A stretch of 64,000 bases of DNA, taken from the NCBI RefSeq assembly GCF_947623445.1, contig NC_135245.1:18359501-18423500 (forward strand). Direction: 5' to 3'. The stretch is from Clavelina lepadiformis. Lineage: Eukaryota; Chordata; Ascidiacea; Aplousobranchia; Clavelinidae. The notes beneath the pieces are model-generated. The model was not told where the DNA came from, ran no database searches, and saw only the letters and a list, made by a program, of their open reading frames with translations. Shown in pieces: positions 13,470-61,760 of the stretch. Position 1 is the first letter of the stretch, and every line of letters begins with the position of its first letter. The position numbers and the translations under genes were made by a program.

Positions 13470-13508
13470 CTGGCCCAGCCCGCGTAGGTTCGAATCCTGC
13501 CGACAAAG
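13470..13508 (+). pseudogene. tRNA-Ser 3' half, left edge of the repeat complex
   Basis: The sequence matches the variable arm, T arm and 3' acceptor strand of the array tRNA, with B-box GGTTCGAATCC. It is followed by the same 3' spacer as a normal unit. The 5' half has been replaced by the LINE fragment and its TCTAGTAC repeats. Confidence 0.8.
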
Positions 13509-13541
13509 CCGATATTACTTTTGCAATTTCATATGGATATT

Positions 13542-13993
13542 GCATATGCATATTCAAATGGATATGAAAGCAGAGGGTGGGTGGGGGAAACTCATAGTTC
13601 AGTGGAAAAATCGGAGAACGTCGATCGACAAGCTGCAGGTTCAAACCAGCGAGCCGCAGAGCGACGAGCCAACAACCGTTTGATGACCATAGACTCACGT
13701 CTAGGCCACCAGCTGGCTAGACTCACGTCTAGGCCACCAGCTGGCTAGACTCACGTCCAGGCTACCAGCTGGCTAGACTCACGTCTAGGCCACCAGCTGG
13801 CTAGACTCACGTCAATCCTGAGTATTTAGGAAGCTGCCGGAAGCTGTAAAAAAAGTTGCAAAAGTTGCAAAAACTTGCCCTACTAATCACCTAATCCTAA
13901 TCCTAATCACTTACCTTATATAATATATATAGATATCTATATATAGATATAGTCATAAGTATAACTAAAATTTATGAATTTCTTCACGTTTAA
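13542..13993 (+). repeat. Outer cap copy (SINE-like head, 28-bp minisatellite, AT-rich stretch)
   Basis: This begins where the last tRNA spacer gives way to GCATATGCATATTC. It contains a tRNA-like segment with an A-box-like TAGTTCAGTGG and a B-box-like GGTTCAAACC. Next come about four copies of a 28-bp repeat (13690-13813), then an AT-rich part. That part holds a 22-bp perfect palindrome centred on GATATC with TATATATA on each side. Copies in the internal caps have only about one 28-bp unit. Confidence 0.75.
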
Positions 13994-14442
13994 GGGGTCA
14001 CTTCCCAATAAAACGACAATTTTGAGCCGGCAACACTGTGATTGTGACCGTGTCGCACTCAATGCGTCATATTAAAAAAAGTAAAAATTTTCCTGTCCAA
14101 TGCGCGTGTGACGTCAATGTGGAGTAGTTCGTCGTTGCTTTGACGACAGCTGGATCCAGGTCTAGGCTAAGTTGTAAATTTTGTGTGGGTTTGAATTTTT
14201 GTTTTTTTGGAGTATTTGTCATAAAATGTTAAGCTAAAAACTTGTTGTAAAGTTTAGGCAATTGTTATAGAAAACTGAGTACATGAATTTTGTCCAAATT
14301 AAGACTGTAGACAGACATAACCTAGGTCTTGTTGCAAGCCAAAATTCAGGGTAGGTTTATGAAGTAGTTTTGCGTTGGTAGCTTCTTGATTTAATGTACT
14401 TTGCATTGAAAAGCCTATCTCTTTGAATTGGGACATGACCCC
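13994..14442. mobile_element. MITE with TTAA on both flanks (reference copy)
   Basis: Inverted ends GGGGTCACTTCCCAAT and, at the other end, GGGGTCATGTCCCAAT are flanked by TTAA at 13990-13993 and 14443-14446. A TTAA duplication suggests a piggyBac-type element; a TA duplication (mariner-type) with one more base in each end is an alternative. At 449 bp and non-coding, it is the only copy in the window with both flanks intact. Confidence 0.7.
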
Positions 14443-14546
14443 TTAAGCAAATAACAGAAGTTTACTTTAGTACTTAAAATTTAGTTGGAACTAGCTTATA
14501 GTTAATACACTACAGAGACGTAGGCGTAGCTAGGTCTCGAAATCAG
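14443..14546 (+). repeat. Link sequence between MITE and 26-bp minisatellite (complete copy)
   Basis: About 100 bp running from TTAAGCAAATAAC to the start of the minisatellite. The same sequence recurs, inverted and then partly direct, at the three minisatellite palindrome centres. It therefore gives the uninterrupted order for those junctions. Confidence 0.8.
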
Positions 14547-15288
14547 CTTGATTTTCATCTAGACTACGCTAGCTTGATTTTCATCTAGACTACGCTAGCT
14601 AGATTTTCATGTAGACTACACTAACTTGATTTTCATCTAGACTACGCTTGCTAGATTTTCATCTAGACTACGCTAGCTTGATTTTCATCTAGACTACGCT
14701 AGCTTGATTTTCATCTAGACTACGCTTGCTAGATTTTCATCTAGACTACACTTGCTTGATTTTCTTCTAGACTACGCTAGCTTGAATTTTCATTTAGACT
14801 ACGCTGGCTTGATTTTCATCTAGACTACCCTAGCTAGATTTTCATCTAGACTACGCTAGCTAAATTTTCATCTAGACTACGCTAGCTAGATTTTCATCTA
14901 GACTACGCTAGCTTGGTTTTCATCTAAACTACGCTAGCTTGGTTTTCATCTAGACTACGCTAGCTTGATTTTCATCTAGGCTACGCTAGCTTGATTTTCA
15001 TCTAGACTACGCTAGCTTGATTTTCATCTAGACTACGCTAGCTAGATTTTCATCTAGACTACGCTAGCTAGATTTTCATCTAGACTACGCTAGCTTGATT
15101 TTCATCTAGACTACGCTAGCTTGATTTTCATCTAGACTACGCTAGCTTGATTTTCATCTAGACGACGCTAGCTTGATTTTCATCTAGACTACGCTAGCTA
15201 GATTTTCATCTAGACTACGCTAGCTTGATTTTCATCTAGACTACGCTAGCTTGATTTTCATCTAGACTACGCTGGCTACATTTTCATC
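14547..15288 (+). repeat. 26-bp minisatellite block A1
   Basis: About 29 tandem copies of a 26-bp unit containing GATTTTCATCTAGACTACGC and then TAGCTT or TAGCTA. The unit includes the short palindromes TCTAGA and GCTAGC. Copies differ at scattered positions, and the same pattern of differences recurs in the other blocks, so the blocks are duplicates of one another. Confidence 0.92.
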
Positions 15289-15289
15289 T

Positions 15290-15362
15290 TGTCAGATTTG
15301 AAAGTCAGGAGAAGATTACGGAAACACCGACATGGTGGAATCTATCTAGTGATTCGAGAAAA
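15290..15362 (+). repeat. 73-bp leader between minisatellite and tRNA array
   Basis: Single-copy per arm, beginning GTCAGATTTGAAAGTCAGG. It recurs at the start of every array arm (near 27380, 40013 and 54580 on plus; 25719, 38352 and 52893 on minus). It could carry regulatory or boundary function, but nothing in the sequence shows this. Confidence 0.7.
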
Positions 15363-17625
15363 GTGCGATTTTATCTATTTCATCTATGCATTAAGCACAG
15401 TTGTCGTGGCCGAGTGGTTAAGGCGACAGACTCGAAATCTGTTGGGCCCTGCCCGCGTAGGTTCGAATCCTGCCGACAACGCCGATATTACTTTTGCAAT
15501 TTCATATGGATATTCGGAAATGTGCGATTTTATCTATTTCATCTATGCATTAAGCACAGTTGTCGTGGCCGAGTGGTTAAGGCGACAGACTCGAAATCTG
15601 TTGGGCCCTGCCCGCGTAGGTTCGAATCCCGCCGACAACGCCGATATTACTTTTGCAATTTCATATGGATATTCGGAAATGTGCGATTTTATCTATTTCA
15701 TCTATGCATTAAGCACAGTTGTCGTGGCCGAGTGGTTATGGCGACAGACTCGAAATCTGTTGGGCCCTGCCCGCGTAGGTTCGAATCCCGCCGACAACGC
15801 CGATATTACTTTTGCAATTTCATATGGATATTCGGAAAAGTGCGATTTTATCTATTTCATCTATGCATTAAGCACAGTTGTCGTGGCCGAGTGGTTAAGG
15901 CGACAGACTCGAAATCAGTTAGGCCATGCCCGCGTAGGTTCGAATCCTTCCGACAACGCCGATATTACTTTTGCAATTTCATATGGATATTCGGAAATGT
16001 GCGATTTTATCTATTTCATCTATACATTAAGCACAGTTGTCGTGGCCGAGTGGTTAAGGCGACAGACTCGAAATCTGTTGGGCCCTGCCCGCGTAGGTTC
16101 GAATCTCGCCGACAACGCCGATATTACTTTTGCAATTTCATATGGATAATCGGAAAATTGCGATTTTATCTATTTCACCTATGCATTAAGCACAGTTGTC
16201 GTGGCGGAGTGGTTAAGGCGACAGACTCGAAATCTGTTGGGCCCTGCCCGCGTAGGTTCGAATCCCGCCGACAACGCCGATATTACTTTTGCAATTTCAT
16301 ATGGATATTCGGAAAAGTGCAATTTTATTTATTTCATCTATGCATTAAGCACAGTTGTCGTGGCCAAGTGGTTAAGGCGACAGACTCGAAATCTGTTGGG
16401 CCTTGCCCGCGTAGGTTCGAATCTCGCCGACAACGCCGATATTACTTTTGCAATTTCTTATGGATAATCGGAAAAGTGCGATTTTATCTATTTCATCTAT
16501 GCATTAAGCACAATTGTCGGGGCGGAGTGGTTAAGGCGACAGACTCGAAATCTGTTGGGCCCTGCCCGCGTAGGTTCGAATCCCGCCGACAACGCCGATA
16601 TTACTTTTGCAATTTCATATGGATATTCGGAAATGTGGCATTTTAACTATTTCATCTATGCATTAAGCACAGTTGTCGTGGCCGAGTGGTTAATGCGATA
16701 CACTCGAAATCTGTTGGGCTCTGCCCGCGTAGGTTCGAATCCCGCCGACAACGCCGATATTACTTTTGCAATTTCATATGGATATTAAGAAATGTACCAT
16801 TTTAACTATTTCATCTATGCATTAGGCATAGTTGTCGTGGCCGAGTGGTTAAGGCGACAGACTCGAAATCTGTTAGGCCCTGCCCGCGTAGGTTCGAATC
16901 CCGCCGACAACGCCGATATTACTTTTGCAATTTCATATGGATAATCGAAAAAGTGCGATTTTATCTCTTTCATCTATGCATTAAGCACAGTTGTCGTGGC
17001 GGAGTGGTTAAGGCGACAGACTCGAAATCAGTTAGGCCATGCCCGCGTAGGTTCGAATCCTTCCGACAACGCCGATATTACTTTTGCAATTTCATATGGA
17101 TATTCGGAAATGTGCGATTTTATCTATTTCATCTATACATTAAGCACAGTTGTCGTGGCCGAGTGGTTAAGGCGACAGACTCGAAATCTGTTGGGCCCTG
17201 CCCGCGTAGGTTCGAATCTCGCCGACAACGCCGATATTACTTTGGCAATTTCATATGGATAATCGGAAAATTGCGATTTTATCTATTTCACCTATGCATT
17301 AAGCACAGTTGTCGTGGCGGAGTGGTTAAGGCGACAGACTCGAAATCTGTTGGGCCCTGCCCGCGTAGGTTCGAATCCCGCCGACAACGCCGATATTACT
17401 TTTGCAATTTCATATGGATATTCGGAAATGTGGCATTTTAACTGTTTCATCTATTCATTAAGCACAGTTGTCGTGGCCGAGTGGTTAAGGCGACAGACTC
17501 GAAATCTGTTGGGCTCTGCCCGAGTAGGTTCGAATCCCGCCGACAACGCCGATATTACTTTTGCAATTTCATATGGATATTCGGAAATGTGCGATTTTAT
17601 CTATTTCATCTATGCATTAAGCACA

Positions 17626-17707
17626 GTTGTCGTGGCCGAGTGGTTAAGGCGACAGACTCAAAATCAGTTAGGCCATGCCCGCGTAGGTTCGAATCCCGCC
17701 GACAACG
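17626..17707 (+). tRNA. tRNA-Ser-like copy with anticodon CAA
   Basis: The anticodon loop reads CTCAAAA instead of CTCGAAA, giving CAA, complementary to the leucine codon UUG, on a serine-type tRNA body. The anticodon stem also has one mismatch (ACAGA/TCAGT). Equivalent copies lie at 30032-30113 and 42983-43064, as expected from duplication. Confidence 0.85.
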
Positions 17708-18579
17708 CCGATATTACTTTTGCAATTTCATATGGATATTCGGAAAAGTGCAATTTTATTTATTTCATCTATGCATTAAGCACAGTTGTCGTGGCCAAGT
17801 GGTTAAGGCGACAGACTCGAAATCTGTTGGGCCTTGCCCGCGTAGGTTCGAATCTCGCCGACAACGCCGATATTACTTTTGCAATTTCATATGGATAATC
17901 GGAAAAGTGCGATTTTATCTATTTCATCTATGCATTAAGCACAGTTGTCGTGGCGGAGTGGTTAAGGCGACAGACTCGAAATCTGTTGGGCCCTGCCCGC
18001 GTAGGTTCGAATCCCGCCGACAACGCCGATATTACTTTTGCAATTTCATATGGATATTCGGAAATGTGGCATTTTAACTATTTCATCTATGCATTAAGCA
18101 CAGTTGTCGTGGCCGAGTGGTTAATGCGATACACTCGAAATCTGTTGGGCTCTGCCCGCGTAGGTTCGAATCCCGCCGACAACGCCGATATTACTTTTGC
18201 AATTTCATATGGATATTAAGAAATGTACCATTTTAACTATTTCATCTATGCATTTGGCATAGTTGTCGTGGACGAGTGGTTAAGGCGACAGACTCGAAAT
18301 CTGTTAGGCCCTGCCCGCGTAGGTTCGAATCCCGCCGACAACGCCGATATTACTTTTGCAATTTCATATGGATATTCGGAAATGTGCGATTTTATCTATT
18401 TCATCTATACATTAAGCACAGTTGTCGTGGCCGAGTGGTTAAGGCGACAGACTCGAAATCTGTTGGGCCCTGCCCGCGTAGGTTCGAATCTTGCCGACAA
18501 CGCCGATATTACTTTTGCAATTTCATATGGATAATCGGAAAAGTGCGATTTTATCTCTTTCATCTTTGCATTAAGCACA

Positions 18580-18661
18580 GTTGTCGTGTCGGAGTGGTTA
18601 AGGCGACAGACTCGAAATCTGTTGGGCCCTGCCCGCGTAGGCTCGAATCCCGCCGACAAGG
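18580..18661 (+). pseudogene. tRNA-Ser copy with altered internal promoter and acceptor
   Basis: This copy has GTGTCGGAG in the A-box region, GGCTCGAATCC in the B-box and CGACAAGG at the 3' end, breaking acceptor pairing. Matching copies occur in B2 and B3. It is probably not expressed or not charged. Confidence 0.6.
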
Positions 18662-19648
18662 CCGATATTACTTTTGCAATTTCATATGGATATTCGGAAA
18701 TGTGGCATTTTAACTATTTCATCTATGCATTAAGCACAGTTGTCGTGGCCGAGTGGTTAAGGCGATAGACTCGAAATCTGTTGGGCTCTGCCCGCGTAGG
18801 TTCGAATCCCGCCGACAACGCCGATATTACTTTTGCAATTTCATATGGATATTCGGAAATGTGGCATTTTAACTATTTCATCTATGCATTAAGCACAGTT
18901 GTCGTGGCCGCGTGGTTAATGCGATACACTCGAAATCTGTTGGGCTCTGCCCGCGTAGGTTCGAATCCCGCCGACAACGCCGATATTACTTTTGCAATTT
19001 CATATGGATATTAAGAAATGTACCATTTTAACTATTTCATCTATGCATTAGGCATAGTTGTCGTGGCCGAGTGGTTAAGGCGACAGACTCGAAATCTGTT
19101 AGGCCCTGCCCGCGTAGGTTCGAATCCCGCCGACAACGCCGATATTACTTTTGCAATTTCATATGGATTTTCGGAAATGTGCGATTTTATCTATTTCATC
19201 TATACATTAAGCACAGTTGTCGTGGCCGAGTGGTTAAGGCGACAGACTCGAAATCTGTTGGGCCCTGCCCGCGTAGGTTCGAATCTTGCCGACAACGCCG
19301 ATATTACTTTTGCAATTTCATATGGATAATCGGAAAAGTGCGATTTTATCTCTTTCATCTATGCATTAAGCACAGTTGTCGTGGCGGAGTGGTTAAGGCG
19401 ACAGACTCGAAATCAGTTGGGCCCTGCCCGCGTAGGTTCGAATCCCGCCGACAACACCGATATTACTTTTGCAATTTCATATGGATATTCGGAAATGTGG
19501 AATTTTAACTATTTCATCTATGCATTAAGCACAGTTGTCGTGGCCGAGTGGTTAAGGCGATAGACTCGAAATCTGTTGGGCTCTGCCCGCGTAGGTTCGA
19601 ATCCCGCCGACAACGCCGATATTACTTTTGCAATTTCATATGGATATT

Positions 19649-20568
19649 GCATATGCATATTCAAATGGATATGAAAGCAAAGGGTGGGTGGGGGGAACTC
19701 ATAGTGCAGTGGAAAAATCGGAGAACGTCGATCGACAAGCTGCAGGTTCAAACCAGCGAGCCGCAGAGCGACGAGCCAACAACCGTTTGATGACCATAGA
19801 CTCACGTCTAGGCCACCAGCTGGCTAGACTCACGTCACGTCAATCCTGTGTATTTAGGAAGCTGCCGGAAGCTGTAAAAAAATTTGCAAAAGTTGCAAAA
19901 ACTTGCCCTACTAATCACCTAATCCTAATCCTAATCACTTACCTTATATAATATATATAGATATCTATATATAGATATAGTCATAAGTATAACTAAAATT
20001 TATGAATTTCTTCACGTTTAAGGGGTCACTTCCCAATAAAACGACAATTTTGTGCCGGCAACACTGTGATTGTGACCGTGTCGCACTCAATGCGTCATAT
20101 TAAAAAAAGTAAAAATTTTCCGGTCCATTGCGCGTGTGACGTCGATGTGGAGTAGTTCGTCGTTGCTTTGACAACAGCTGGATCCAGGTCTAGGCTAAGT
20201 TGTAAATTTTGTGTGGGTTTGAATTTTTGTTTTTTTGGAGTATTTGTCATAAAAGGGTTAAGCTAAAAACTTGTTGTAAAGTTTAGGCAATTGTTATAGA
20301 AAACTGAGTACATGGATTTTGTCCAAATTAAGACTGTAGACAGACATAACCTAGGTCTTGTTGCAAGCCAAAATTCAGGGTAGGTTTATGAAGTAGTTTT
20401 GCGTTGGTAGCTTCTTGATTTAATGTACTTTGCATTGAAAAGCCTATCTCTTTGAATTGGGACATGACCCCTGCAGCTTGTCGATCGACGTTCTCCGATT
20501 TTTCCACTGCACTATGAGTTCCCCCCACCCACCCTTTGCTTTCATATCCATTTGAATATGCATATGCA
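19649..20568. repeat. Convergent cap C1 (palindrome centre)
   Basis: Reading plus, it holds GCATATGCATATTC, the SINE-like head with CTGCAG, one 28-bp unit, an AT palindrome and the MITE. It then jumps at CCCC/TGCAG into the inverted head. The stretch from CTGCAG (near 19742) to the MITE end (20471) is single-copy and forms the loop between two inverted arms. The right TTAA of the MITE is missing here. Confidence 0.85.
20022..20471. mobile_element. TTAA-type MITE, copy in cap C1
   Basis: Nearly identical to the 13994-14442 copy, with TTAA on the left only. The right end passes directly from CCCC into TGCAGCTTGTCG, the inverted cap. Equivalent copies lie at 32428-32877 (cap C2) and 45379-45828 (cap C3). 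Confidence 0.75.
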
Positions 20569-20600
20569 TTATCCATATGAAATTGCAAAAGTAATATCGG

Positions 20601-20682
20601 CGTTGTCGGCGGGATTCGAACCTACGCGGGCAGAGCCCAACAGATTTCAAGTCTATCGCCTTAACCACTCGGCCACGACAAC
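20601..20682 (-). tRNA. tRNA-Ser copy with anticodon UGA
   Basis: The anticodon loop is CTTGAAA (UGA, reading UCA), still a serine codon. The anticodon stem is ATAGA/TCTGT, paired with one G-U. It is the copy next to the cap. Identical copies lie at 33007-33088 and 45958-46039, and a related UGA copy at 61365-61446. Confidence 0.85.
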
Positions 20683-23600
20683 TGTGCTTAATGCATAGAT
20701 GAAATAGTTAAAATTCCACATTTCCGAATATCCATATGAAATTGCAAAAGTAATATCGGCGTTGTCGGCGGGATTCGAACCTACGCGGGCAGGGCCCAAC
20801 AGATTTCGAGTCTGTCGCCTTAACCACTCCGCCACGACAACTGTGCTTAATGCATAGATGAAAGAGATAAAATCGCACTTTTCCGATTATCCATATGAAA
20901 TTGCAAAAGTAATATCGGCGTTGTCGGCAAGATTCGAACCTACGCGGGCAGGGCCTAACAGATTTCGAGTCTGTCGCCTTAACCACTCGGCCACGACAAC
21001 TATGCCTAATGCATAGATGAAATAGTTAAAATGGTACATTTCTTAATATCCATATGAAATTGCAAAAGTAATATCGGCGTTGTCGGCGGGATTCGAACCT
21101 ACGCGGGCAGAGCCCAACAGATTTCGAGTGTATCGCATTAACCACTCGGCCACGACAACTGTGCTTAATGCATAGATGAAATAGTTAAAATGCCACATTT
21201 CCGAATATCCATATGAAATTGCAAAAGTAATATCGGCGTTGTCGGCGGGATTCGAACCTACGCGGGCAGAGCCCAACAGATTTCGAGTCTATCGCCTTAA
21301 CCACTCGGCCACGACAACTGTGCTTAATGCATAGATGAAATAGTTAAAATGCCACATTTCCGAATATCCATATGAAATTGCAAAAGTAATATCGGCCTTG
21401 TCGGCGGGATTCGAACCTACGCGGGCAGGGCCCAACAGATTTCGAGTCTGTCGCCTTAACCACTCCGCCACGACAACTGTGCTTAATGCATAGATGAAAG
21501 AGATAAAATCGCACTTTTCCGATTATCCATATGAAATTGCAAAAGTAATATCGGCGTTGTCGGCAAGATTCGAACCTACGCGGGCAGGGCCCAACAGATT
21601 TCGAGTCTGTCGCCTTAACCACTCGGCCACGACAACTGTGCTTAATGTATAGATGAAATAGATAAAATCGCACATTTCCGAATATCCATATGAAATTGCA
21701 AAAGTAATATCGGCGTTGTCGGCGGGATTCGAACCTACTCGGGCAGAGCCCAACAGATTTCGAGTCTGTCGCCTTAACCACTCGGCCACGACAACTGTGC
21801 TTAATGAATAGATGAAACAGTTAAAATGCCACATTTCCGAATATCCATATGAAATTGCAAAAGTAATATCGGCGTTGTCGGCGGGATTCGAACCTACGCG
21901 GGCAGGGCCCAACAGATTTCGAGTCTGTCGCCTTAACCACTCCGCCACGACAACTGTGCTTAATGCATAGATGAAAGAGATAAAATCGCACTTTTCCGAT
22001 TATCCATATGAAATTGCAAAAGTAATATCGGCGTTGTCGGCAAGATTCGAACCTACGCGGGCAGGGCCCAACAGATTTCGAGTCTGTCGCCTTAACCACT
22101 CGGCCACGACAACTGTGCTTAATGTATAGATGAAATAGATAAAATCGCACATTTCCGAATATCCATATGAAATTGCAAAAGTAATATCGGCGTTGTCGGC
22201 GGGATTCGAACCTACGCGGGCAGGGCCTAACAGATTTCGAGTCTGTCGCCTTAACCACTCGGCCACGACAACTATGCCTAATGCATAGATGAAATAGTTA
22301 AAATGGTACATTTCTTAATATTCATATGAAATTGCAAAAGTAATATCGGCGTTGTCGGCGGGATTCGAACCTACGCGGGCAGAGCCCAACAGATTTCGAG
22401 TGTATCGCATTAACCACTCGGCCACGACAACTGTGCTTAATGCATAGATGAAATAGTTAAATGGTACATTTCTTAATATCCATATGAAATTGCAAAAGTA
22501 ATATCGGCGTTGTCGGCGGGATTCGAACCTACTCGGGCAGAGCCCAACAGATTTCGAGTCTGTCGCCTTAACCACTCGGCCACGACAACTGTGCTTAATG
22601 AATAGATGAAACAGTTAAAATGCCACATTTCCGAATATCCATATGAAATTGCAAAAGTAATATCGGCGTTGTCGGCGGGATTCGAACCTACGCGGGCAGG
22701 GCCCAACAGATTTCGAGTCTGTCGCCTTAACCACTCCGCCACGACAACTGTGCTTAATGCATAGGTGAAATAGATAAAATCGCAATTTTCCGATTATCCA
22801 TATGAAATTGCCAAAGTAATATCGGCGTTGTCGGCGAGATTCGAACCTACGCGGGCAGGGCCCAACAGATTTCGAGTCTGTCGCCATAACCACTCGGCCA
22901 CGACAACTGTGCTTAATGTATAGATGAAATAGATAAAATCGCACATTTCCGAATATCCATATGAAATTGCAAAAGTAATATCGGCGTTGTCGGCGGGATT
23001 CGAACCTACTCGGGCAGAGCCCAACAGATTTCGAGTCTGTCGCCTTAACCACTCGGCCACGACAACTGTGCTTAATGAATAGATGAAACAGTTAAAATGC
23101 CACATTTCCGAATATCCATATGAAATTGCAAAAGTAATATCGGCGTTGTCGGCGGGATTCGAACCTACGCGGGCAGGGCCCAACAGATTTCGAGTCTGTC
23201 GCCTTAACCACTCCGCCACGACAACTGTGCTTAATGCATAGATGAAAGAGATAAAATCGCACTTTTCCGATTATCCATATGAAATTGCAAAAGTAATATC
23301 GGCGTTGTCGGCAAGATTCGAACCTACGCGGGCAGGGCCCAACAGATTTCGAGTCTGTCGCCTTAACCACTCGGCCACGACAACTGTGCTTAATGTATAG
23401 ATGAAATAGATAAAATCGCACATTTCCGAATATCCATATGAAATTGCAAAAGTAATATCGGCGTTGTCGGAAGGATTCGAACCTACGCGGGCAGGGCCTA
23501 ACAGATTTCGAGTCTGTCGCCTTAACCACTCGGCCACGACAACTGTGCTTAATGAATAGATGAAACAGTTAAAATGCCACATTTCCGAATATCCATATGA

Positions 23601-25609: not shown

Positions 25610-25720
25610 TGTGCTTAATGCATAGATGAAATAGATAAAATCGCACTTTTCTCGAATCACTAGATAGATTCCACCATGTCGGTGTTTCCGTAATCTTCTC
25701 CTGACTTTCAAATCTGACAA

Positions 25721-26488: not shown

Positions 26489-26636
26489 CTGATTTCGAGA
26501 CCTAGCTACGCCTACGTCTCTGTAGTGTATTAACTATAAGCTAGTTCCAACTAAATTTTAAGTACTAAAGTAAACTTCTGTTATTTGCTTAAGCAAGCAC
26601 TACAGAGACGTAGGCGTAGCTAGGTCTCGAAATCAG
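26489..26636. repeat. Divergent palindrome centre E1/A2
   Basis: The inverted link sequence runs to GTTATTTGCTTAAG, then CAAG, then the direct link resumes at CACTACAGAG. TTGCTTAAGCAA at the centre is a 12-bp perfect palindrome. About 60 bp of link is present in the left arm and missing from the right, an asymmetric centre. The same centre occurs at 39122-39269 and 53663-53810. Confidence 0.85.
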
Positions 26637-27378: not shown

Positions 27379-27489
27379 TTGTCAGATTTGAAAGTCAGGA
27401 GAAGATTACGGAAACACCGACATGGTGGAATCTATCTAGTGATTCGAGAAAAGTGCGATTTTATCTATTTCATCTATGCATTAAGCACA

Positions 27490-44972: not shown

Positions 44973-45005
44973 CCGATATTACTTTTGCAATTTCATATGG
45001 ATATT

Positions 45006-45925: not shown

Positions 45926-45957
45926 TTATCCATATGAAATTGCAAAAGTAATATCGG

Positions 45958-48264: not shown

Positions 48265-48312
48265 TGTGCTTAATGCATAGGTGAAATAGATAAAATCGCA
48301 ATTTTCCGATTA

Positions 48313-49967: not shown

Positions 49968-49999
49968 TTATCCATATGAAATTGCCAAAGTAATATCGG

Positions 50000-52783
50000 C
50001 GTTGTCGGCGAGATTCGAACCTACGCGGGCAGGGCCCAACAGATTTCGAGTCTGTCGCCATAACCACTCGGCCACGACAACTGTGCTTAATGTATAGATG
50101 AAATAGATAAAATCGCACATTTCCGAATATCCATATGAAATTGCAAAAGTAATATCGGCGTTGTCGGCGGGATTCGAACCTACTCGGGCAGGGCCCAACA
50201 GATTTCGAGTCTGTCGCCTTAACCACTCGGCCACGACAACTGTGCTTAATGAATAGATGAAACAGTTAAAATGCCACATTTCCGAATATCCATATGAAAT
50301 TGCAAAAGTAATATCGGCGTTGTCGGCGGGATTCGAACCTACGCGGGCAGGGCCCAACAGATTTCGAGTCTGTCGCCTTAACCACTCCGCCACGACAACT
50401 GTGCTTAATGCATAGATGAAAGAGATAAAATCGCACTTTTCCGATTATCCATATGAAATTGCAAAAGTAATATCGGCGTTGTCGGCAAGATTCGAACCTA
50501 CGCGGGCAGGGCCCAACAGATTTCGAGTCTGTCGCCTTAACCACTCGGCCACGACAACTGTGCTTAATGTATAGATGAAATAGATAAAATCGCACATTTC
50601 CGAATATCCATATGAAATTGCAAAAGTAATATCGGCGTTGTCGGAAGGATTCGAACCTACGCGGGCAGGGCCTAACAGATTTCGAGTCTGTCGCCTTAAC
50701 CACTCGGCCACGACAACTGTGCTTAATGAATAGATGAAACAGTTAAAATGCCACATTTCCGAATATCCATATGACATTGCAAAAGTAATATCGGCGTTGT
50801 CGGCGGGATTCGAACCTACGCGGGCAGGGCCCAACAGATTTCGAGTCTGTCGCCTTAACCACTCCGCCACGACAACTGTGCTTAATGCATAGGTGAAATA
50901 GATAAAATCGCAATTTTCCGATTATCCATATGAAATTGCCAAAGTAATATCGGCGTTGTCGGCGAGATTCGAACCTACGCGGGCAGGGCCCAACAGATTT
51001 CGAGTCTGTCGCCTTAACCACTCGGCCACGACAACTGTGCTTAATGTATAAATGAAATAGATAAAATCGCACATTTCCGAATATCCATATGAAATTGCAA
51101 AAGTAATATCGGCGTTGTCGGAAGGATTCGAACCTACGCGGGCATGGCCTAACTGATTTCGAGTCTGTCGCCTTAACCACTCGGCCACGACAACTGTGCT
51201 TAATGCATAGATGAAATAGATAAAATCGCACTTTTCCGAATATCCATATGAAATTGCAAAAGTAATATCGGCGTTGTCGGCGGGATTCGAACCTACGCGG
51301 GCAGGGCCCAACAGATTTCGAGTCTGTCGCCATAACCACTCGGCCACGACAACTGTGCTTAATGCATAGATGAAATAGATAAAATCGCACATTTCCGAAT
51401 ATCCATATGAAATTGCAAAAGTAATATCGGCGTTGTCGGCGGGATTCGAACCTACGCGGGCAGGGCCCAACAGATTTCGAGTCTGTCGCCTTAACCACTC
51501 GGCCACGACAACTGTGCTTAATGCATAGATGAAATAGATAAAATCGCACATTTCCGAATATCCATATGAAATTGCAAAAGTAATATCAGCGTTGTCGGCG
51601 GGATTCGAACCTAAACGGGCAGGGCCCAACAGATTTCGAGTCTGTCGCCTTAACCACTCGGCCACGACAACTGTGCTTAATGCATAGATGAAATAGTTAA
51701 ATGGCACATTTCTTAATATCCATATGAAATTGCAAAAGTAATATCGGCGTTGTCGGCGGGATTCGAACCTACTCGGGCAGAGCCCAACAGATTTCGAGTC
51801 TGTCGCCTTAACCACTCGGCCACGACAACTGTGCTTAATGAATAGATGAAATAGTTAAAATGCCACATTTCCGAATATCCATATGAAATTGCAAAAGTAA
51901 TATCGGCGTTGTCGGCGGGATTCGAACCTACGCGGGCAGGGCCCAACAGATTTCGAGTCTGTCGCCTTAACCACTCCGCCACGACAACTGTGCTTAATGC
52001 ATAGGTGAAATAGATAAAATCGCAATTTTCCGATTATCCATATGAAATTGCCAAAGTAATATCGGCGTTGTCGGCGAGATTCGAACCTACGCGGGCAGGG
52101 CCCAACAGATTTCGAGTCTGTCGCCTTAACCACTCGGCCACGACAACTGTGCTTAATGTATAGATGAAATAGATAAAATCGCACATTTCCGAATATCCAT
52201 ATGAAATTGCAAAAGTAATATCGGCGTTGTCGGAAGGATTCGAACCTACGCGGGCATGGCCTAACTGATTTCGAGTCTGTCGCCTTAACCACTCGGCCAC
52301 GACAACTGTGCTTAATGCATAGATGAAATAGATAAAATCGCACTTTTCCGAATATCCATATGAAATTGCAAAAGTAATATCGGCGTTGTCGGCGGGATTC
52401 GAACCTACGCGGGCAGGGCCCAACAGATTTCGAGTCTGTCGCCATAACCACTCGGCCACGACAACTGTGCTTAATGTATAGATGAAATAGATAAAATCGC
52501 ACATTTCCGAATATCCATATGAAATTGCAAAAGTAATATCGGCGTTGTCGGCGGGATTCGAACCTACGCGGGCAGGGCCCAACAGATTTCGAGTCTGTCG
52601 CCTTAACCACTCGGCCACGACAACTGTGCTTAATGCATAGATGAAATAGATAAAATCGCACATTTCCGAATATCCATATGAAATTGCAAAAGTAATATCG
52701 GCGTTGTCGGCAGGATTCGAACCTACGCGGGCAGGGCCCAACAGATTTCGAGTCTGTCGCCTTAACCACTCGGCCACGACAAC
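50000..52783 (-). tRNA. tRNA-Ser array D3, part after the transposon: 18 copies
   Basis: 5' ends from 52783 down to 50081; 17 periods minus 1 bp. It has ten more copies than the matching part of D2. Its outer part matches D1 (for example the unit with ACGGGCAGGG in place of GCGGGCAGGG at 24430 and 51610). D3 thus looks like a mosaic of D1-like and D2-like arms. Confidence 0.93.
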
Positions 52784-52894
52784 TGTGCTTAATGCATAGA
52801 TGAAATAGATAAAATCGCACTTTTCTCGAATCACTAGATAGATTCCACCATGTCGGTGTTTCCGTAATCTTCTCCTGACTTTCAAATCTGACAA

Positions 52895-53662
52895 GATGAA
52901 AATGTAGCCAGCGTAGTCTAGATGAAAATCAAGCTAGCGTAGTCTAGATGAAAATCAAGCTAGCGTAGTCTAGATGAAAATCTAGCTAGCGTAGTCTAGA
53001 TGAAAATCAAGCTAGCGTCGTCTAGATGAAAATCAAGCTAGCGTAGTCTAGATGAAAATCAAGCTAGCGTAGTCTAGATGAAAATCAAGCTAGCGTAGTC
53101 TAGATGAAAATCTAGCTAGCATAGTCTAGATGAAAATCTAGCTAGCGTAGTCTAGATGAAAATCAAGCTAGCGTAGTCTAGATGAAAATCAAGCTAGCGT
53201 AGCCTAGATGAAAATCAAGCTAGCGTAGTCTAGATGAAAACCAAGCTAGCGTAGTTTAGATGAAAACCAAGCTAGCGTAGTCTAGATGAAAATCTAACTA
53301 GCGTAGTCTAGATGAAAATCTAGCTAGCGTAGTCTAGATGAAAATTTAGCTAGCGTAGTCTAGATGAAAATCTAGCTATGGTAGTCTAGATGAAAATCAA
53401 GCCAGCGTAGTCTAAATGAAAATTCAAGCTAGCGTAGTCTAGAAGAAAATCAAGCAAGTGTAGTCTAGATGAAAATCTAGCAAGCGTAGTCTAGATGAAA
53501 ATCAAGCTAGCGTAGTCTAGATGAAAATCAAGCTAGCGTAGTCTAGATGAAAATCTAGCAAGCGTAGTCTAGATGAAAATCAAGTTAGTGTAGTCTACAT
53601 GAAAATCAAGCTAGCGTAGTCTAGATGAAAATCAAGCTAGCGTAGTTTAGATGAAAATCAAG
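52895..53662 (-). repeat. 26-bp minisatellite block E3 (inverted)
   Basis: Same as E1 and E2 in length and unit order. Confidence 0.9.
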
Positions 53663-53810
53663 CTGATTTCGAGACCTAGCTACGCCTACGTCTCTGTAGT
53701 GTATTAACTATAAGCTAGTTCCAACTAAATTTTAAGTACTAAAGTAAACTTCTGTTATTTGCTTAAGCAAGCACTACAGAGACGTAGGCGTAGCTAGGTC
53801 TCGAAATCAG
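53663..53810. repeat. Divergent palindrome centre E3/A4
   Basis: Third copy of the same asymmetric centre with TTGCTTAAGCAA. Confidence 0.85.
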
Positions 53811-54578
53811 CTTGATTTTCATCTAGACTACGCTAGCTTGATTTTCATCTAGACTACGCTAGCTAGATTTTCATGTAGACTACACTAACTTGATTTTCAT
53901 CTAGACTACGCTTGCTAGATTTTCATCTAGACTACGCTAGCTTGATTTTCATCTAGACTACGCTAGCTTGATTTTCATCTAGACTACGCTTGCTAGATTT
54001 TCATCTAGACTACACTTGCTTGATTTTCTTCTAGACTACGCTAGCTTGAATTTTCATTTAGACTACGCTGGCTTGATTTTCATCTAGACTACCCTAGCTA
54101 GATTTTCATCTAGACTACGCTAGCTAAATTTTCATCTAGACTACGCTAGCTAGATTTTCATCTAGACTACGCTAGCTAGATTTTCATCTAGACTACGCTA
54201 GCTTGGTTTTCATCTAAACTACGCTAGCTTGGTTTTCATCTAGACTACGCTAGCTTGATTTTCATCTAGGCTACGCTAGCTTGATTTTCATCTAGACTAC
54301 GCTAGCTTGATTTTCATCTAGACTACGCTAGCTAGATTTTCATCTAGACTACGCTAGCTAGATTTTCATCTAGACTACGCTAGCTTGATTTTCATCTAGA
54401 CTACGCTAGCTTGATTTTCATCTAGACTACGCTAGCTTGATTTTCATCTAGACGACGCTAGCTTGATTTTCATCTAGACTACGCTAGCTAGATTTTCATC
54501 TAGACTACGCTAGCTTGATTTTCATCTAGACTACGCTAGCTTGATTTTCATCTAGACTACGCTGGCTACATTTTCATC
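53811..54578 (+). repeat. 26-bp minisatellite block A4
   Basis: One 26-bp unit longer than A1-A3 (807 bp from link to leader); the extra unit is a repeated GCTAGCTAGA type near 54150. Confidence 0.9.
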
Positions 54579-55325
54579 TTGTCAGATTTGAAAGTCAGGA
54601 GAAGATTACGGAAACACCGACATGGTGGAATCTATCTAGTGATTCGAGAAAAGTGCGATTTTATCTATTTCATCTATGCATTAAGCACAGTTGTCGTGGC
54701 CGAGTGGTTAAGGCGACAGACTCGAAATCTGTTGGGCCCTGCCCGCGTAGGTTCGAATCCTGCCGACAACGCCGATATTACTTTTGCAATTTCATATGGA
54801 TATTCGGAAATGTGCGATTTTATCTATTTCATCTATGCATTAAGCAAAGTTGTCGTGGCCGAGTGGTTAAGGCGACAGACTCGAAATCTGTTGGGCCCTG
54901 CCCGCGTAGGTTCGAATCCTTCCGACAACGCCGATATTACTTTTGCAATTTCATATGGATATTCGGAAATGTGCGATTTTATCTATTTCATCTATGCATT
55001 AAGCACAGTTGTCGTGGCCGAGTGGTTATGGCGACAGACTCGAAATCTGTTGGGCCCTGCCCGCGTAGGTTCGAATCCCGCCGACAACGCCGATATTACT
55101 TTTGCAATTTCATATGGATATTCGGAAATGTGCGATTTTATCTATTTCATCTATGCATTAAGCACAGTTGTCGTGGCCGAGTGGTTAAGGCGACAGACTC
55201 GAAATCTGTTGGGCCCTGCCCGCGTAGGTTCGAATCCCGCCGACAACGCCGATATTACTTTTGCAATTTCATATGGATATTCGGAAATGTGCGATTTTAT
55301 CTATTTCATCTATGCATTAAGCACA

Positions 55326-55407
55326 GTTGTCGTGGCCGAGTGGTTATGGCGACAGACTAGAAATCTGTTGGGCCCTGCCCGCGTAGGTTCGAATCCTGCC
55401 GACAACG
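55326..55407 (+). tRNA. tRNA-Ser copy with anticodon AGA
   Basis: The loop is CTAGAAA, giving AGA (normally modified to IGA, reading UCU/UCC/UCA), the common serine isoacceptor. This copy also has the fully paired T stem CCTGC. It is the only AGA copy seen. Confidence 0.85.
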
Positions 55408-58400
55408 CCGATATTACTTTTGCAATTTCATATGGATATTCGGAAATGTGCGATTTTATCTATTTCATCTATGCATTAAGCACAGTTGTCGTGGCCGAGT
55501 GGTTAAGGCGACAGACTCGAAATCTGTTGGGCCCTGCCCGCGTAGGTTCGAATCCCGCCGACAACGCCGATATTACTTTTGCAATTTCATATGGATATTC
55601 GGAAATGTGCGATTTTATCTATTTCATCTATGCATTAAGCACAGTTGTCGTGGCCGAGTGGTTATGGCGACAGACTCGAAATCTGTTGGGCCCTGCCCGC
55701 GTAGGTTCGAATCCCGCCGACAACGCCGATATTACTTTTGCAATTTCATATGGATATTCGGAAAAGTGCGATTTTATCTATTTCATCTATGCATTAAGCA
55801 CAGTTGTCGTGGCCGAGTGGTTAAGGCGACAGACTCGAAATCAGTTAGGCCATGCCCGCGTAGGTTCGAATCCTTCCGACAACGCCGATATTACTTTTGC
55901 AATTTCATATGGATATTCGGAAATGTGCGATTTTATCTGTTTCATCTATACATTAAGCACAGTTGTCGTGGCCGAGTGGTTAAGGCGACAGACTCGAAAT
56001 CTGTTGGGCCCTGCCCGCGTAGGTTCGAATCTCGCCGACAACGCCGATATTACTTTGGCAATTTCATATGGATAATCGGAAAATTGCGATTTTATCTATT
56101 TCACCTATGCATTAAGCACAGTTGTCGTGGCGGAGTGGTTAAGGCGACAGACTCGAAATCTGTTGGGCCCTGCCCGCGTAGGTTCGAATCCCGCCGACAA
56201 CGCCGATATTACTTTTGCAATTTCATATGGATATTCGGAAATGTGGCATTTCAACTATTTCATCTATTCATTAAGCACAGTTGTCGTGGCCGAGTGGTTA
56301 AGGCGACAGACTCGAAATCTGTTGGGCTCTGCCCGAGTAGGTTCGAATCCCGCCGACAACGCCGATATTACTTTTGCAATTTCATATGGATATTAAGAAA
56401 TGAGCCATTTAACTATTTCATCTATGCATTAAGCACAGTTGTCGTGGCCGAGTGGTTAAGGCGACAGACTCGAAATCTGTTGGGCCCTGCCCGTTTAGGT
56501 TCGAATCCCGCCGACAACGCTGATATTACTTTTGCAATTTCATATGGATATTCGGAAATGTGCGATTTTATCTATTTCATCTATGCATTAAGCACAGTTG
56601 TCGTGGCCGAGTGGTTAAGGCGACAGACTCGAAATCTGTTGGGCCCTGCCCGCGTAGGTTCGAATCCCGCCGACAACGCCGATATTACTTTTGCAATTTC
56701 ATATGGATATTCGGAAATGTGCGATTTTATCTATTTCATCTATGCATTAAGCACAGTTGTCGTGGCCGAGTGGTTATGGCGACAGACTCGAAATCTGTTG
56801 GGCCCTGCCCGCGTAGGTTCGAATCCCGCCGACAACGCCGATATTACTTTTGCAATTTCATATGGATATTCGGAAAAGTGCGATTTTATCTATTTCATCT
56901 ATGCATTAAGCACAGTTGTCGTGGCCGAGTGGTTAAGGCGACAGACTCGAAATCAGTTAGGCCATGCCCGCGTAGGTTCGAATCCTTCCGACAACGCCGA
57001 TATTACTTTTGCAATTTCATATGGATATTCGGAAATGTGCGATTTTATCTATTTCATCTATACATTAAGCACAGTTGTCGTGGCCGAGTGGTTAAGGCGA
57101 CAGACTCGAAATCTGTTGGGCCCTGCCCGCGTAGGTTCGAGTCTCGCCGACAACGCCGATATTACTTTGGCAATTTCATATGGATAATCGGAAAATTGCG
57201 ATTTTATCTATTTCACCTATGCATTAAGCACAGTTGTCGTGGCGGAGTGGTTAAGGCGACAGACTCGAAATCTGTTGGGCCCTGCCCGCGTAGGTTCGAA
57301 TCCCGCCGACAACGCCGATATTACTTTTGCAATTTCATATGGATATTCGGAAATGTGGCATTTTAACTGTTTCATCTATTCATTAAGCACAGTTGTCGTG
57401 GCCGAGTGGTTAAGGCGACAGACTCGAAATCTGTTGGGCTCTGCCCGAGTAGGTTCGAATCCCGCCGACAACGCCGATATTACTTTTGCAATTTCATATG
57501 GATATTAAGAAATGTACCATTTAACTATTTCATCTATGCATTAAGCACAGTTGTCGTGGCCGAGTGGTTAAGGCGACAGACTCGAAATCTGTTGGGCCCT
57601 GCCCGCGTAGGTTCGAATCCCGCCGACAACGCCGATATTACTTTTGCAATTTCATATGGATATTCGGAAATGTGGCATTTTAACTATTTCATCTATGCAT
57701 TAAGCACAGTTGTCGTGGCCGAGTGGTTAATGCGATACACTCGAAATCTGTTGGGCTCTGCCCGCGTAGGTTCGAATCCCGCCGACAACGCCGATATTAC
57801 TTTTGCAATTTCATATGGATATTAAGAAATGTACCATTTTAACTATTTCATCTATGCATTAGGCATAGTTGTCGTGGCCGAGTGGTTAAGGCGACAGACT
57901 CGAAATCTGTTAGGCCCTGCCCGCGTAGGTTCGAATCCCGCCGACAACGCCGATATTACTTTTGCAATTTCATATGGATATTCGGAAATGTGCGATTTTA
58001 TCTATTTCATCTATACATTAAGCACAGTTGTCGTGGCCGAGTGGTTAAGGCGACAGACTCGAAATCTGTTGGGCCCTGCCCGCGTAGGTTCGAATCTTGC
58101 CGACAACGCCGATATTACTTTTGCAATTTCATATGGATAATCGGAAAAGTGCGATTTTATCTCTTTCATCTATGCATTAAGCACAGTTGTCGTGGCGGAG
58201 TGGTTATGGCGACAGACTCGAAATCAGTTAGGCCATGCCCGCGTAGGTTCGAATCCTTCCGACAACGCCGATATTACTTTTGCATATTCATATGGATATT
58301 CGGAAAGGTGCGATTTTATCTATTTCATCTATACATTATGCACAGTTGTCGTGGCCGAGTGGTTAACGCGACAGACTCGAAATCTGTTGGGCCCTGCCCG

Positions 58401-61364
58401 CGTAGGTTCGAATCTCGCCGACAACGCCGATATTACTTTGGCAATTTCATATGGATAATCGGAAAATTGCGATTTTATCTATTTCACCTATGCATTAAGC
58501 ACAGTTGTCGTGGCGGAGTGGTTAAGGCGACAGACTCGAAATCTGTTGGGCCCTGCCCGCGTAGGTTCGAATCCCGCCGACAACGCCGATATTACTTTTG
58601 CAATTTCATATGGATATTCGGAAATGTGGCATTTTAACTGTTTCATCTATTCATTAAGCACAGTTGTCGTGGCCGAGTGGTTAAGGCGACAGACTCGAAA
58701 TCTGTTGGGCTCTGCCCGAGTAGGTTCGAATCCCGCCGACAACGCCGATATTACTTTTGCAATTTCATATGGATATTCGGAAAAGTGCGATTTTATCTCT
58801 TTCATCTATGCATTATGCACAGTTGTCGTGGCCGAGTGGTTAACGCGACAGACTCGAAATCTGTTGGGCCCTGCCCGCGTAGGTTCGAATCTCGCCGACA
58901 ACGCCGATATTACTTTGGCAATTTCATATGGATAATCGGAAAATTGCGATTTTATCTATTTCACCTATGCATTAAGCACAGTTGTCGTGGCGGAGTGGTT
59001 AAGGCGACAGACTCGAAATCTGTTGGGCCCTGCCCGCGTAGGTTCGAATCCCGCCGACAACGCCGATATTACTTTTGCAATTTCATATGGATATTCGGAA
59101 ATGTGGCATTTTAACTGTTTCATCTATTCATTAAGCACAGTTGTCGTGGCCGAGTGGTTAAGGCGACAGACTCGAAATCTGTTGGGCTCTGCCCGAGTAG
59201 GTTCGAATCCCGCCGACAACGCCGATATTACTTTTGCAATTTCATATGGAAATTCGGAAATGTGCGATTTTATCTATTTCATCTATGCAATAAGCACAGT
59301 TGTCGTGGCCGAGTGGTTAAGGCGACAGACTCGAAATCTGTTGGGCCCTGCCCGCGTAGGTTCGAATCCCGCCGACAAAGCCGATATTACTTTTGCAATT
59401 TCTTATGGATAATCGGAAAAGTGCGATTTTATCTATTTCACCTATGCATTAAGCACAGTTGTCGTGGCGGAGTGGTTAAGGCGACAGACTCGAAATCTGT
59501 TGGGCCCTGCCCGCGTAGGTTCGAATCCCGCCGACAACGCCGATATTACTTTTGCAATTTCATATGGATATTAAGAAATGTACCATTTAACTATTTCATC
59601 TATGCATTAAGCACAGTTGTCGTGGCCGAGTGGTTATGGCGACAGACTCGAAATCTGTTGGGCCCTGCCCGTGTAGGTTCGAATCCCGCCGACAACGCCG
59701 ATATTACTTTTGCAATTTCATATGGAAATTCGGAAATGTGCGATTTTATCTATTTCATCTATGCAATAAGCACAGTTGTCGTGGCCGAGTGGTTAAGGCG
59801 ACAGACTCGAAATCTGTTGGGCCCTGCCCGCGTAGGTTCGAATCCCGCCGACAAAGCCGATATTACTTTTGCAATTTCTTATGGATAATCGGAAAAGTGC
59901 GATTTTATCTATTTCATCTATGCATTAAGCACAGTTGTCGTGGCCGAGTGGTTAAGGAGACAGACTCGAAATCAGTTAGGCCATGCCCGCGTAGGTTCGA
60001 ATCCCGCCGACAACACCGATATTACTTTTGCAATTTCATATGGATATTCGGAAAAGTGCAATTTTATTTATTTCATCTATGCATTAAGCACAGTTGTCGT
60101 GGCCAAGTGGTTAAGGCGACAGACTCGAAATCTGTTGGGCCTTGCCCGCGTAGGTTCGAATCTCGCCGACAACGCCGATATTACTTTTGCAATTTCATAT
60201 GGATAATCGGAAAAGTGCGATTTTATCTATTTCATCTATGCATTAAGCACAGTTGTCGTGGCGGAGTGGTTAAGGCGACAGACTCGAAATCTGTTGGGCC
60301 CTGCCCGCGTAGGTTCGAATCCCGCCGACAACGCCGATATTACTTTTGCAATTTCATATGGATATTCGGAAATGTGGCATTTTAACTATTTCATCTATGC
60401 ATTAAGCACAGTTGTCGTGGCCGAGTGGTTAATGCGATACACTCGAAATCTGTTGGGCTCTGCCCGCGTAGGTTCGAATCCCGCCGACAACGCCGATATT
60501 ACTTTTGCAATTTCATATGGATATTCGGAAATGTACCATTTTAACTATTTCATCTATGCATTAAGCATAGTTGTCGTGGACGAGTGGTTAAGGCGACAGA
60601 CTCGAAATCTGTTAGGCCCTGCCCGCGTAGGTTCGAATCCCGCCGACAACGCCGATATTACTTTTGCAATTTCATATGGATATTCGGAAATGTGCGATTT
60701 TATCTATTTCATCTATACATTAAGCACAGTTGTCGTGGCCGAGTGGTTAAGGCGACAGACTCGAAATCTGTTGGGCCCTGCCCGCGTAGGTTCGAATCTT
60801 GCCGACAACGCCGATATTACTTTTGCAATTTCATATGGATAATCGGAAAAGTGCGATTTTATCTCTTTCATCTATGCATTAAGCACAGTTGTCGTGGCGG
60901 AGTGGTTAAGGCGACAGACTCGAAATCTGTTGGGCCCTGCCCGCGTAGGTTCGAATCCCGCCGACAACGCCGATATTACTTTTGCAATTTCATATGGATA
61001 TTCGGAAATGTGGCATTTTAACTATTTCATCTATGCATTAAGCACAGTTGTCGTGGCGGAGTGGTTAAGGCGATAGACTCGAAATCTGTTGGGCTCTGCC
61101 CGCGTAGGTTCGAATCCCGCCGACAACGCCGATATTACTTTTGCAATTTCATATGGATATTCGGAAATGTGGCATTTTAACTATTTCATCTATGCATTAA
61201 GCACAGTTGTCGTGGCCGAGTGGTTAAGGCGATACACTCGAAATCTGTTGGGCTCTGCCCGCGTAGGTTCGAATCCCGCCGACAACGCCGATATTACTTT
61301 TGCAATTTCATATGGATATTAAGAAATGTACCATTTTAACTATTTCATCTATGCCTTAAGCACA

Positions 61365-61446
61365 GTTGTCGTGGCCGAGTGGTTAAGGCGACAGACTTGA
61401 AATCAGTTAGGCCATGCCCGCGTAGGTTCGAATCCCGCCGACAACG
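61365..61446 (+). tRNA. tRNA-Ser copy with anticodon UGA, right edge of array
   Basis: The loop is CTTGAAA (UGA), and the anticodon stem ACAGA/TCAGT has one mismatch. It is the last copy before the terminal cap. Confidence 0.8.
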
Positions 61447-61479
61447 CCGATATTACTTTTGCAATTTCATATGGATATT

Positions 61480-61760
61480 GCATATGCATATTCAAATGGA
61501 TATGAAAGTTGAGGGTGGGAGGGGGGAACTCATAGTGCAGTGGAAAAATCGGAGAACGTCGATCGACAAGCTGCAGGTTCAAACCAGCGAGCCGCAGAGC
61601 GACGAGCCAACAACCGTTTGTCGACCATAGACTCACGTCTAGGCCACCAGCTGTCTAGGCCACCAGCTGGCTAGACACACGTCTAGGCCACCAGCTGGCT
61701 AGACCCACGTCTAGGCCACCAGCTGGCTAGACCCACGTCTAGGCCACCAGCTGGCTAGAC
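61480..61760 (+). repeat. Terminal cap C4 (SINE-like head plus 28-bp minisatellite)
   Basis: Contains the head with GGTTCAAACC and several 28-bp units (CACGTCTAGGCCACCAGCTG). It stops before the AT-rich part and MITE that follow in other caps. This marks the right edge of the complex. Confidence 0.8.

Follow-up and report, generated by a model that had tools for sequence, protein, structure and literature searches.

Introduction

Tandem arrays of tRNA genes are known from Entamoeba (PMC2652664) and Arabidopsis (PMC12308677), and the number of tRNA genes (tDNAs) differs widely among eukaryotes (PMC2888827); these papers and the others on tRNA genes cited below are drawn on in part. In Entamoeba, the tRNA genes are part of tandem units and are separated by short tandem repeats; homogenisation by concerted evolution has been proposed there (PMC2652664). 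The Arabidopsis Ser-Tyr-Tyr cluster is a large, serine-containing tandem cluster that stands beside dispersed normal genes; some of its copies are defective, and 13 of the 54 clustered Tyr copies yield tRNA-like RNAs (PMC12308677). On zebrafish chromosome 4, thousands of predicted tRNA genes occupy one heterochromatic, methylated region (PMC11574265). Here we describe a stretch of 64,000 nucleotides (hereafter the window) on chromosome 6 (contig C6, bases 18359501-18423500) of the ascidian Clavelina lepadiformis, which carries 218 tRNA-Ser copies in inverted arrays. With a probability of roughly two in three, we read this locus as a composite satellite derived from tRNA genes, with mostly intact RNA polymerase III (Pol III) boxes, which is not the main tRNA supply.

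The window shares with Entamoeba the tandem unit of a tRNA gene with short repeats. However, almost all tRNA genes of E. histolytica are in arrays, whereas Clavelina has fully paired genes for all three serine anticodons (TGA, CGA, AGA) outside them, and, unlike in Entamoeba, its stems decay and its unit is nested inside a larger palindromic repeat (PMC2652664). The resemblance to Arabidopsis lies in the large serine tandem cluster beside normal dispersed genes and in the defective copies, but that cluster has fewer copies, apparently at a single locus, and its expression was demonstrated in root tips (PMC12308677). The zebrafish clusters, compared here by description only, are on one chromosome, whereas the Clavelina tRNA-Ser family is on several (PMC11574265).

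No ascidian composite tRNA-Ser satellite turned up in the titles and abstract openings listed by literature searches, in which the full texts covered were those under open licence. C. lepadiformis belongs to the Aplousobranchia, as does Didemnum. Among tunicates, about 90% of tDNAs are clustered in Ciona savignyi and about 40% in C. intestinalis and Botryllus, while almost 99% are unclustered in Didemnum; composite tRNA-Ser satellites are not described in the part of that survey used here (PMC5006418). In kind, the Clavelina array belongs with the known tandem tRNA arrays, although it appears largely to have become satellite DNA. Three features set it apart from those arrays: a nested composite that includes two minisatellites, a cassette of isoacceptors of which one has been expanded, and a higher-order unit that is palindromic.

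tRNA-Ser copies in the window

A BLAST search with the 82-nt consensus as query recovered 218 full-length tRNA-Ser copies (130 on the plus and 88 on the minus strand), arranged in seven strand-alternating arrays of 27, 32, 29, 15 + 8, 31, 15 + 18, and 43 units and spaced at 159 bp in most cases. A first-pass annotation, made from the letters and their open reading frames (ORFs), had listed 27, 32, 29, 23, 31, 33, and 43 class II tRNA-Ser genes in a 159-bp unit, mostly CGA, in mirror-image arms that switch strand. Its numbers, strands, and coordinates were borne out, as were the arms and the unit. The tRNA-Ser body has a long variable arm (82 nt, class II), and the anticodon is CGA in 210 copies, TGA in four, CAA in three, and AGA in one. 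A long variable arm and a discriminator G (G73) are known serine identity features, and G73 is present in 214 of the 218 copies. ARAGORN called 215 tRNAs in the window and Rfam returned 216 matches (150 of them listed), one of which is known to lie outside the arrays, at 62727-62798; no Rfam tRNA match fell within window positions 1-15399. The 218 units represent 64 distinct sequences. Unit types follow one order that is common to the plus arms and a different one in the minus arms, apart from gains and losses of blocks. Because a reversed control pattern gave no match in the whole genome, against 359 places for the CGA pattern (exact) and 1,377 for a 34-base tRNA-Ser pattern (up to three mismatches), the matches are not due to chance.

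Decay of the tRNA fold

All 23 stem pairs (acceptor, D, anticodon, variable, and T) were standard in only 27 of the 218 copies. The remaining 191 have at least one broken stem pair, so that "tRNA genes", the term of the first-pass annotation, is too strong for most of them, which lack the full pairing strictly expected of a functional class II tRNA-Ser gene; that they are tRNA-Ser bodies stands. The fault seen most often is a T-stem A.C mismatch (A60.C72), present in 174 of the 218. The Pol III elements have fared better, in agreement with the A and B boxes and the T run 10 nt downstream noted earlier: an A-box pattern was found in 94% of the copies, TTTT within 29 nt downstream in 92%, the B-box core GGTTCGAATC in 214 of 218, and the full 11-nt B box GGTTCGAATCC in 170 of 218.

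The pattern of changes resembles that of sequence free of selection on the fold. Compared with a fully paired Ser-AGA gene outside the arrays (L029; loci in this genome are given L numbers), 20 distinct changed pair states were counted, 16 of them broken and none compensated on both sides. The broken share expected without selection is 0.62-0.83 (kappa 6 to 1), and 16 of 20 is the proportion expected. The ratio of tRNA to flank divergence was 0.70 within the window and 0.74-0.93 when the window was compared with its four closest relatives, as against 0.21-0.25 between the window and three places on C1; the tRNA part was therefore formerly constrained, and is much less so in the window. The share of fully paired copies also varies by place, from 20 of 40 on C7 at 19.0 Mb to 1 of 29 on C3 at 22.4 Mb. 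Pairing and divergence counts cover ungapped alignments of 70 nt or more, leaving aside one gapped copy at C2 2.05 Mb, two at C2 23.28 Mb, and shorter alignments that include eight first copies at C2 2.05 Mb; the divergence figures are for copies with complete flanks. In those eight first-position TGA copies (L008-L010, C2:2.05 Mb), the 5' part could not be aligned to the tRNA consensus, which is one change copied through the tandem array.

Several observations weigh against this picture. If the A60.C72 mismatch is tolerated, 108 of the 218 copies would still fold, and the count of 16 in 20 assumes that pair states are independent. Divergence within the window is still lower in the tRNA part (0.044) than in the flanks (0.062), and the least variable segment is the 29 bp downstream of the tRNA (pi 0.009, compared with 0.044 for the tRNA and 0.099 upstream). 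Finally, in each of the seven window arms the unit next to the leader is intact, which could hint at selection. That hint failed outside the window, where 6 of 50 first units were fully paired (4 of 38 under a stricter filter), and, as the arms were copied from one another recently, the seven intact units count as one event.

Together, the stems and boxes suggest that most window copies escaped selection on the tRNA fold, with the internal Pol III boxes largely kept. From this it would follow that the array is probably dispensable for translation. It may give rise to tRNA-like Pol III transcripts, which would be silenced or degraded. As judged from unit orientation alone, Pol III transcription is predicted to diverge and converge along the arms.

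The persistence of the boxes also agrees with a working supply array, in which the copies would be transcribed to tRNA-Ser(CGA), with activity possibly confined to oocytes, embryos, or a single tissue. The counts for the A box, TTTT, the B-box core, and G73 are as such a function would have them, and the seven leader-proximal copies score 62.9 bits, near the 64.3-67.5 of the genes outside arrays. There is a precedent in the Arabidopsis Ser/Tyr cluster, which is silent in most tissues and active in root-cap cells (PMC12308677). Nevertheless, we regard this explanation as unlikely, since the stems of most copies are broken at the no-selection proportion and a fully paired Ser-CGA gene exists outside the arrays. 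Large tRNA clusters may also be silent: zebrafish chromosome 4, which is near-entirely heterochromatic, has 60% of the predicted tRNA genes, and its large clusters show near-complete CpG methylation (PMC11574265).

A vertebrate-like Ser pattern matched four places outside the arrays. Three of these, of which two are separated by 1.5 kb, are Ser-TGA genes on C3; the fourth is a Ser-CGA gene at C7:478415, and each 3-kb locus carries one tRNA. Rfam scored the Ser-TGA gene L025 at 64.5 bits and the Ser-CGA gene L028 (C7:478415) at 67.5 bits; the other two C3 loci have a tRNA sequence identical to that of L025. The Ser-AGA gene L029, at C1:7752307, scored 64.3 bits, and its flanks are unrelated to the array. 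None of L025, L028, and L029 has a broken stem pair, so each of the three anticodons has at least one fully paired gene outside arrays. With such genes present, tRNA supply, which had been suggested as a possible role, is unlikely as the reason for the array to exist. Fully paired tRNA-Ser copies occur both outside the arrays and inside.

Modular layout and build-up of the window

The arrays of the satellite are set between recurrent modules. The features of the window are the following (positions in the window).

13472..13506, plus: tRNA-Ser unit at the left edge, 3' part only (BLAST, 35-nt match, 94%)
13570..13689, plus: "cap" module, GGTTCAAACC, with A-box- and B-box-like motifs (tRNA-like by eye; no Rfam tRNA score)
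13690..13813, plus: c28 minisatellite, 28 bp, 4.4 copies
13821..14445, plus: spacer module
about 13994-14442: TTAA-flanked segment with 7-bp inverted ends, inside the spacer (by eye)
14446..14545, plus: "pre" module, 100 bp
14545..15289, plus: m26 minisatellite, 26 bp, about 29 copies
15290..15352, plus: leader, 63 bp, 48 nt upstream of the first tRNA
15352..19648, plus: tRNA-Ser array 1, 27 units of 159 bp
19677..20570: inversion junction 1 (cap, c28, spacer, inverted cap)
20570..25657, minus: tRNA-Ser array 2, 32 units
25657..27442: head-to-head junction of the second kind (leader, m26, pre, partial pre, m26, leader)
27442..32054, plus: tRNA-Ser array 3, 29 units
32054..32976: cap-spacer-cap inversion junction, copy 2
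32976..38290, minus: tRNA-Ser array 4, 15 + 8 units with an insertion between
35362..37015, minus: insertion with ends CACTGGACAACA/TGTTGTCCAGTG (by eye), TTA duplications, and a 358-aa ORF, foreign to the array
38290..40075: leader-m26-pre-m26-leader junction, copy 2 (identical to copy 1 over 1785 bp)
40075..45005, plus: tRNA-Ser array 5, 31 units
45005..45927: cap-spacer-cap inversion junction, copy 3
45927..52831, minus: tRNA-Ser array 6, 15 + 18 units, split by a second insertion copy
about 48313-49967: second copy of the array-4 insertion, in array 6
52831..54642: leader-m26-pre-m26-leader junction, copy 3, 26 bp longer
54642..61479, plus: tRNA-Ser array 7, 43 units
61511..61760, plus: cap and 28-bp minisatellite at the right edge

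The first-pass annotation overlooked that only 27 of the 218 copies are fully paired, and also that arrays 4 and 6 are each broken by a copy of the same transposon-like insertion of about 1.65 kb. Their ORFs are of 358 and 347 aa, the former with no Pfam match, and the first copy ends, by eye, in CACTG.../...CAGTG with TTA duplications; we take the insertion to resemble the CACTA superfamily. In a scan of one cap with Rfam at a permissive threshold (E up to 5), no tRNA was recognised.

The cap-spacer-cap junction is present at three places with 0-1 differences in 922 bp. Two copies of the m26 junction are identical over 1785 bp, and the third is 26 bp longer. A 10.85-kb stretch, insertion included, recurs at 99.06% identity, while array 2 is without the insertion common to arrays 4 and 6. 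By junction identity, the window contains about three and a half head-to-tail repeats of a palindromic unit of about 12-15 kb.

Such near-identical junctions could also result from an assembler that inflated the copy number or inverted arms. The assembly is based on PacBio HiFi reads at 117x from 12-20-kb fragments (PMC10884593) and, because the 48-kb array exceeds the HiFi read length, the copy number is the one given by the assembly. Even so, an artefact is extremely improbable: the 10.85-kb segments differ at 97 sites, the arrays are unlike one another in the order and number of their units, the consensus has a quality of 67.4 (PMC10884593), and the family recurs elsewhere in other arrangements.

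The steps probably followed one another in this order. A UCN-serine cluster behind m26 and the 63-bp leader would have been joined to cap, c28, and spacer, and the resulting module of about 2 kb was amplified in tandem and is now at many places. In the window, the CGA unit would then have multiplied to 23-43 copies per arm. An inverted arm pair probably formed first, inverted duplications giving the mirror-image arms, and this pair would have been copied head to tail; the insertion would have entered one minus arm, and that unit would have been copied again. Unequal exchange is the presumed mechanism by which unit numbers later changed.

A genome-wide composite family

The first-pass annotation treated the array as a single unusual locus, a view given up in the light of the genome-wide spread of the tRNA pattern, the leader, and the spacer. 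Beside the serine places counted above, the AGA pattern matched 201 places (100 of which were inspected). The leader pattern matched 135, and the 100 listed are on seven chromosomes (C1, C2, C3, C5, C6, C7, and C8); chromosome placements from the pattern searches rest on about 100 listed matches each. Spacer matches at 96-100% identity lie on at least five chromosomes (C2, C3, C6, C7, and C8), as judged from the 40 of 633 first-look candidates that were scored. What distinguishes the window among the loci seen is the great length of its tRNA runs and the regularity of its inverted arms.

In a like search, control patterns matched 17 (Gly-GCC), 218 (Lys-TTT), and 240 (Leu-AAG/TAG) places, and most listed Lys and Leu places fall in a separate tandem array on C9. 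This array (L031, C9:4.94-5.17 Mb) is large, with a unit of about 1,180 bp that contains Leu-TAG, Leu-AAG, and Lys-TTT tRNA genes; many copies were seen at the top Rfam score, 75.9 bits, and it is possibly a real supply array. Another inverted tRNA arrangement is the alternating-strand array of Lys-TTT tRNA genes at C2:3.87-3.91 Mb (L024).

At composite places, the modules follow the order spacer, 100-bp module, m26, leader, a variable number of tRNAs, cap, c28, and spacer. With the duplicate loci L001-L004 set aside, m26 lies directly upstream of 63 of 64 leaders, and a tRNA follows within 200 nt in 57 and at exactly 48 nt in 47. The order has exceptions: L010 has leaders without tRNAs; in L015 and L016, the tRNA run adjoins the 28-bp repeat with no cap between; the modules of L022 are rearranged; L023 combines cap, 28-bp repeat, and 100-bp module, with no leader; and the leader is also missing in L021, L032, and L033. 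Module sizes vary independently, from 1 to 43 tRNAs, from about 2 to 30 m26 units, and up to about 150 c28 units. On C8 at 1.65 Mb, the module has a period of 2,158 bp with four tRNAs in each, and direct tandems of this kind are also found on C7 and C2. The family has homogenised tandem repeats with higher-order units, in numbers that vary between places, as is the mark of satellite DNA, and the "selfish satellite" named in the first-pass annotation among possible roles agrees with the reading that we favour.

Two observations concern c28. In L020:1-4204 (C7:17.38 Mb), it is expanded to about 150 units in a form of about 30 bp. Inside the 28-bp repeat of L013:7045-7540 and L022:3910-4200 are insertions that begin CAGGG(G/A)TGTC, presumably miniature elements of the hAT type.

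A common module order on several chromosomes is also what a mobile element would leave, whether the composite module was SINE-like (short interspersed element) or a non-autonomous DNA or rolling-circle element with internal tandem repeats, which moved between chromosomes and was then arrayed. The cap bears, by eye, A- and B-box-like motifs, and a place with a single-tRNA cassette exists (L037). Against this, no common termini, target duplication, or transposase gene were seen at the few edges inspected by eye, and cap and c28 are missing at three of four small places, so that the composite unit is not constant. We hold this origin to be quite improbable.

Another reading, which we consider rather improbable, concerns the cassette of m26, leader, and tRNAs: it might be a self-propagating, Pol III-transcribed tDNA unit in which the three UCN-serine isoacceptors keep a fixed order and are expanded one at a time, with the 26-bp repeats and the leader as an upstream control or recombination element. 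If so, expanded arms would alter the pool of serine tRNA or tRNA fragments in the germ line or embryo.

As tRNA genes serve as barriers in several organisms, and Pol III boxes persist in most copies, the array might have been retained for its position, as a chromatin boundary or TFIIIC-bound insulator. However, family members of very different sizes are at many places, and nothing indicates a conserved position, which makes this role very improbable.

Origin of the serine cassette

The composite satellite was not by origin a pure system for the UCG isoacceptor, as the first-pass annotation had it, for many smaller copies carry TGA, CGA, and AGA in fixed order. Of the 50 cassettes counted beyond the window, 34 have TGA in first position and 29 have AGA in last position, and CGA, if there is one, lies in the middle; TGA stands first at 11 of 16 places but not at the other five. 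These counts include cassettes truncated at the end of a locus and tandem copies, which are not independent of each other. Small places without a cap have TGA-AGA (C1 and C6), TGA-TGA (C3), or AGA (C5), and one small place on C8, with a cap, has TGA-CGA-CGA-CGA. The order Ser-TGA, (CGA)n, AGA is often preserved in the smaller copies, so that a cluster of UCN-serine tRNA genes is the most likely starting point of the family. The array consensus is identical to the Ser-AGA gene L029 at 78 of 82 positions and to the Ser-CGA gene L028 at 62 of 82, from which CGA appears to be derived within the TGA/AGA cluster. On the simplest reading, the ancestral cluster held TGA followed by AGA; a change of one anticodon base would have produced CGA, which was later multiplied.

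Changes of a single anticodon base in an otherwise common tRNA body have been described as anticodon shifts (PMC3923123), and the Clavelina family is alike in this respect, with TGA, CGA, and AGA and, more rarely, CTA, GGA, and CAA. It differs in that the changes lie inside tandem arrays and many of the products have broken stems (compare PMC3923123). In L018 and L023, tRNA-Ser bodies with the anticodon CTA were seen, which would decode the stop codon UAG if functional; these are probably chance mutations in decaying copies.

Sequences flanking the array

To the left of the array, a reverse-transcriptase fragment (12807-13445; Pfam RVT_1, E 3.3e-05, below the Pfam cut-off) ends at an 8-bp repeat, GTACTCTA, that adjoins the array. 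The same repeat (CTAGAGTA) is present in 140 copies between tRNA-Ser units and a spacer piece in L033:1037-2156 (C1:26.05 Mb). Spread of the family through a long interspersed element (LINE) was considered on account of this fragment and rejected, since the fragment is confined, within L001-L033, to L004, which represents the window itself, and to a 63-bp piece in L016. A repeat of the right flank is also present in L017, where its relation to the array is not the same as in the window, and it is uninformative.

Also on the right, a weak tRNA match on the minus strand (62727-62798, 39.7 bits) resembles, by eye, initiator Met, and a His-like tRNA sequence with an insert lies at about 62640-62716 (by eye; no Rfam report at gathering level). 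On the left, a piece of a FANCL homologue (10452-10742, minus strand; Pfam FANCL_d2 and FANCL_d3) was the sole host gene recognised among the five ORFs scanned.

Implications

One genome shows a series from single intact tRNA-Ser genes through cassettes of two to four genes and mixed tandem arrays to a palindromic satellite of 218 copies. With this graded series, two questions become testable, namely how a tRNA gene is converted to a satellite and whether Pol III promoter activity persists after the fold has decayed. For the C. lepadiformis genome, it also means that tRNA gene counts may poorly reflect tRNA supply.

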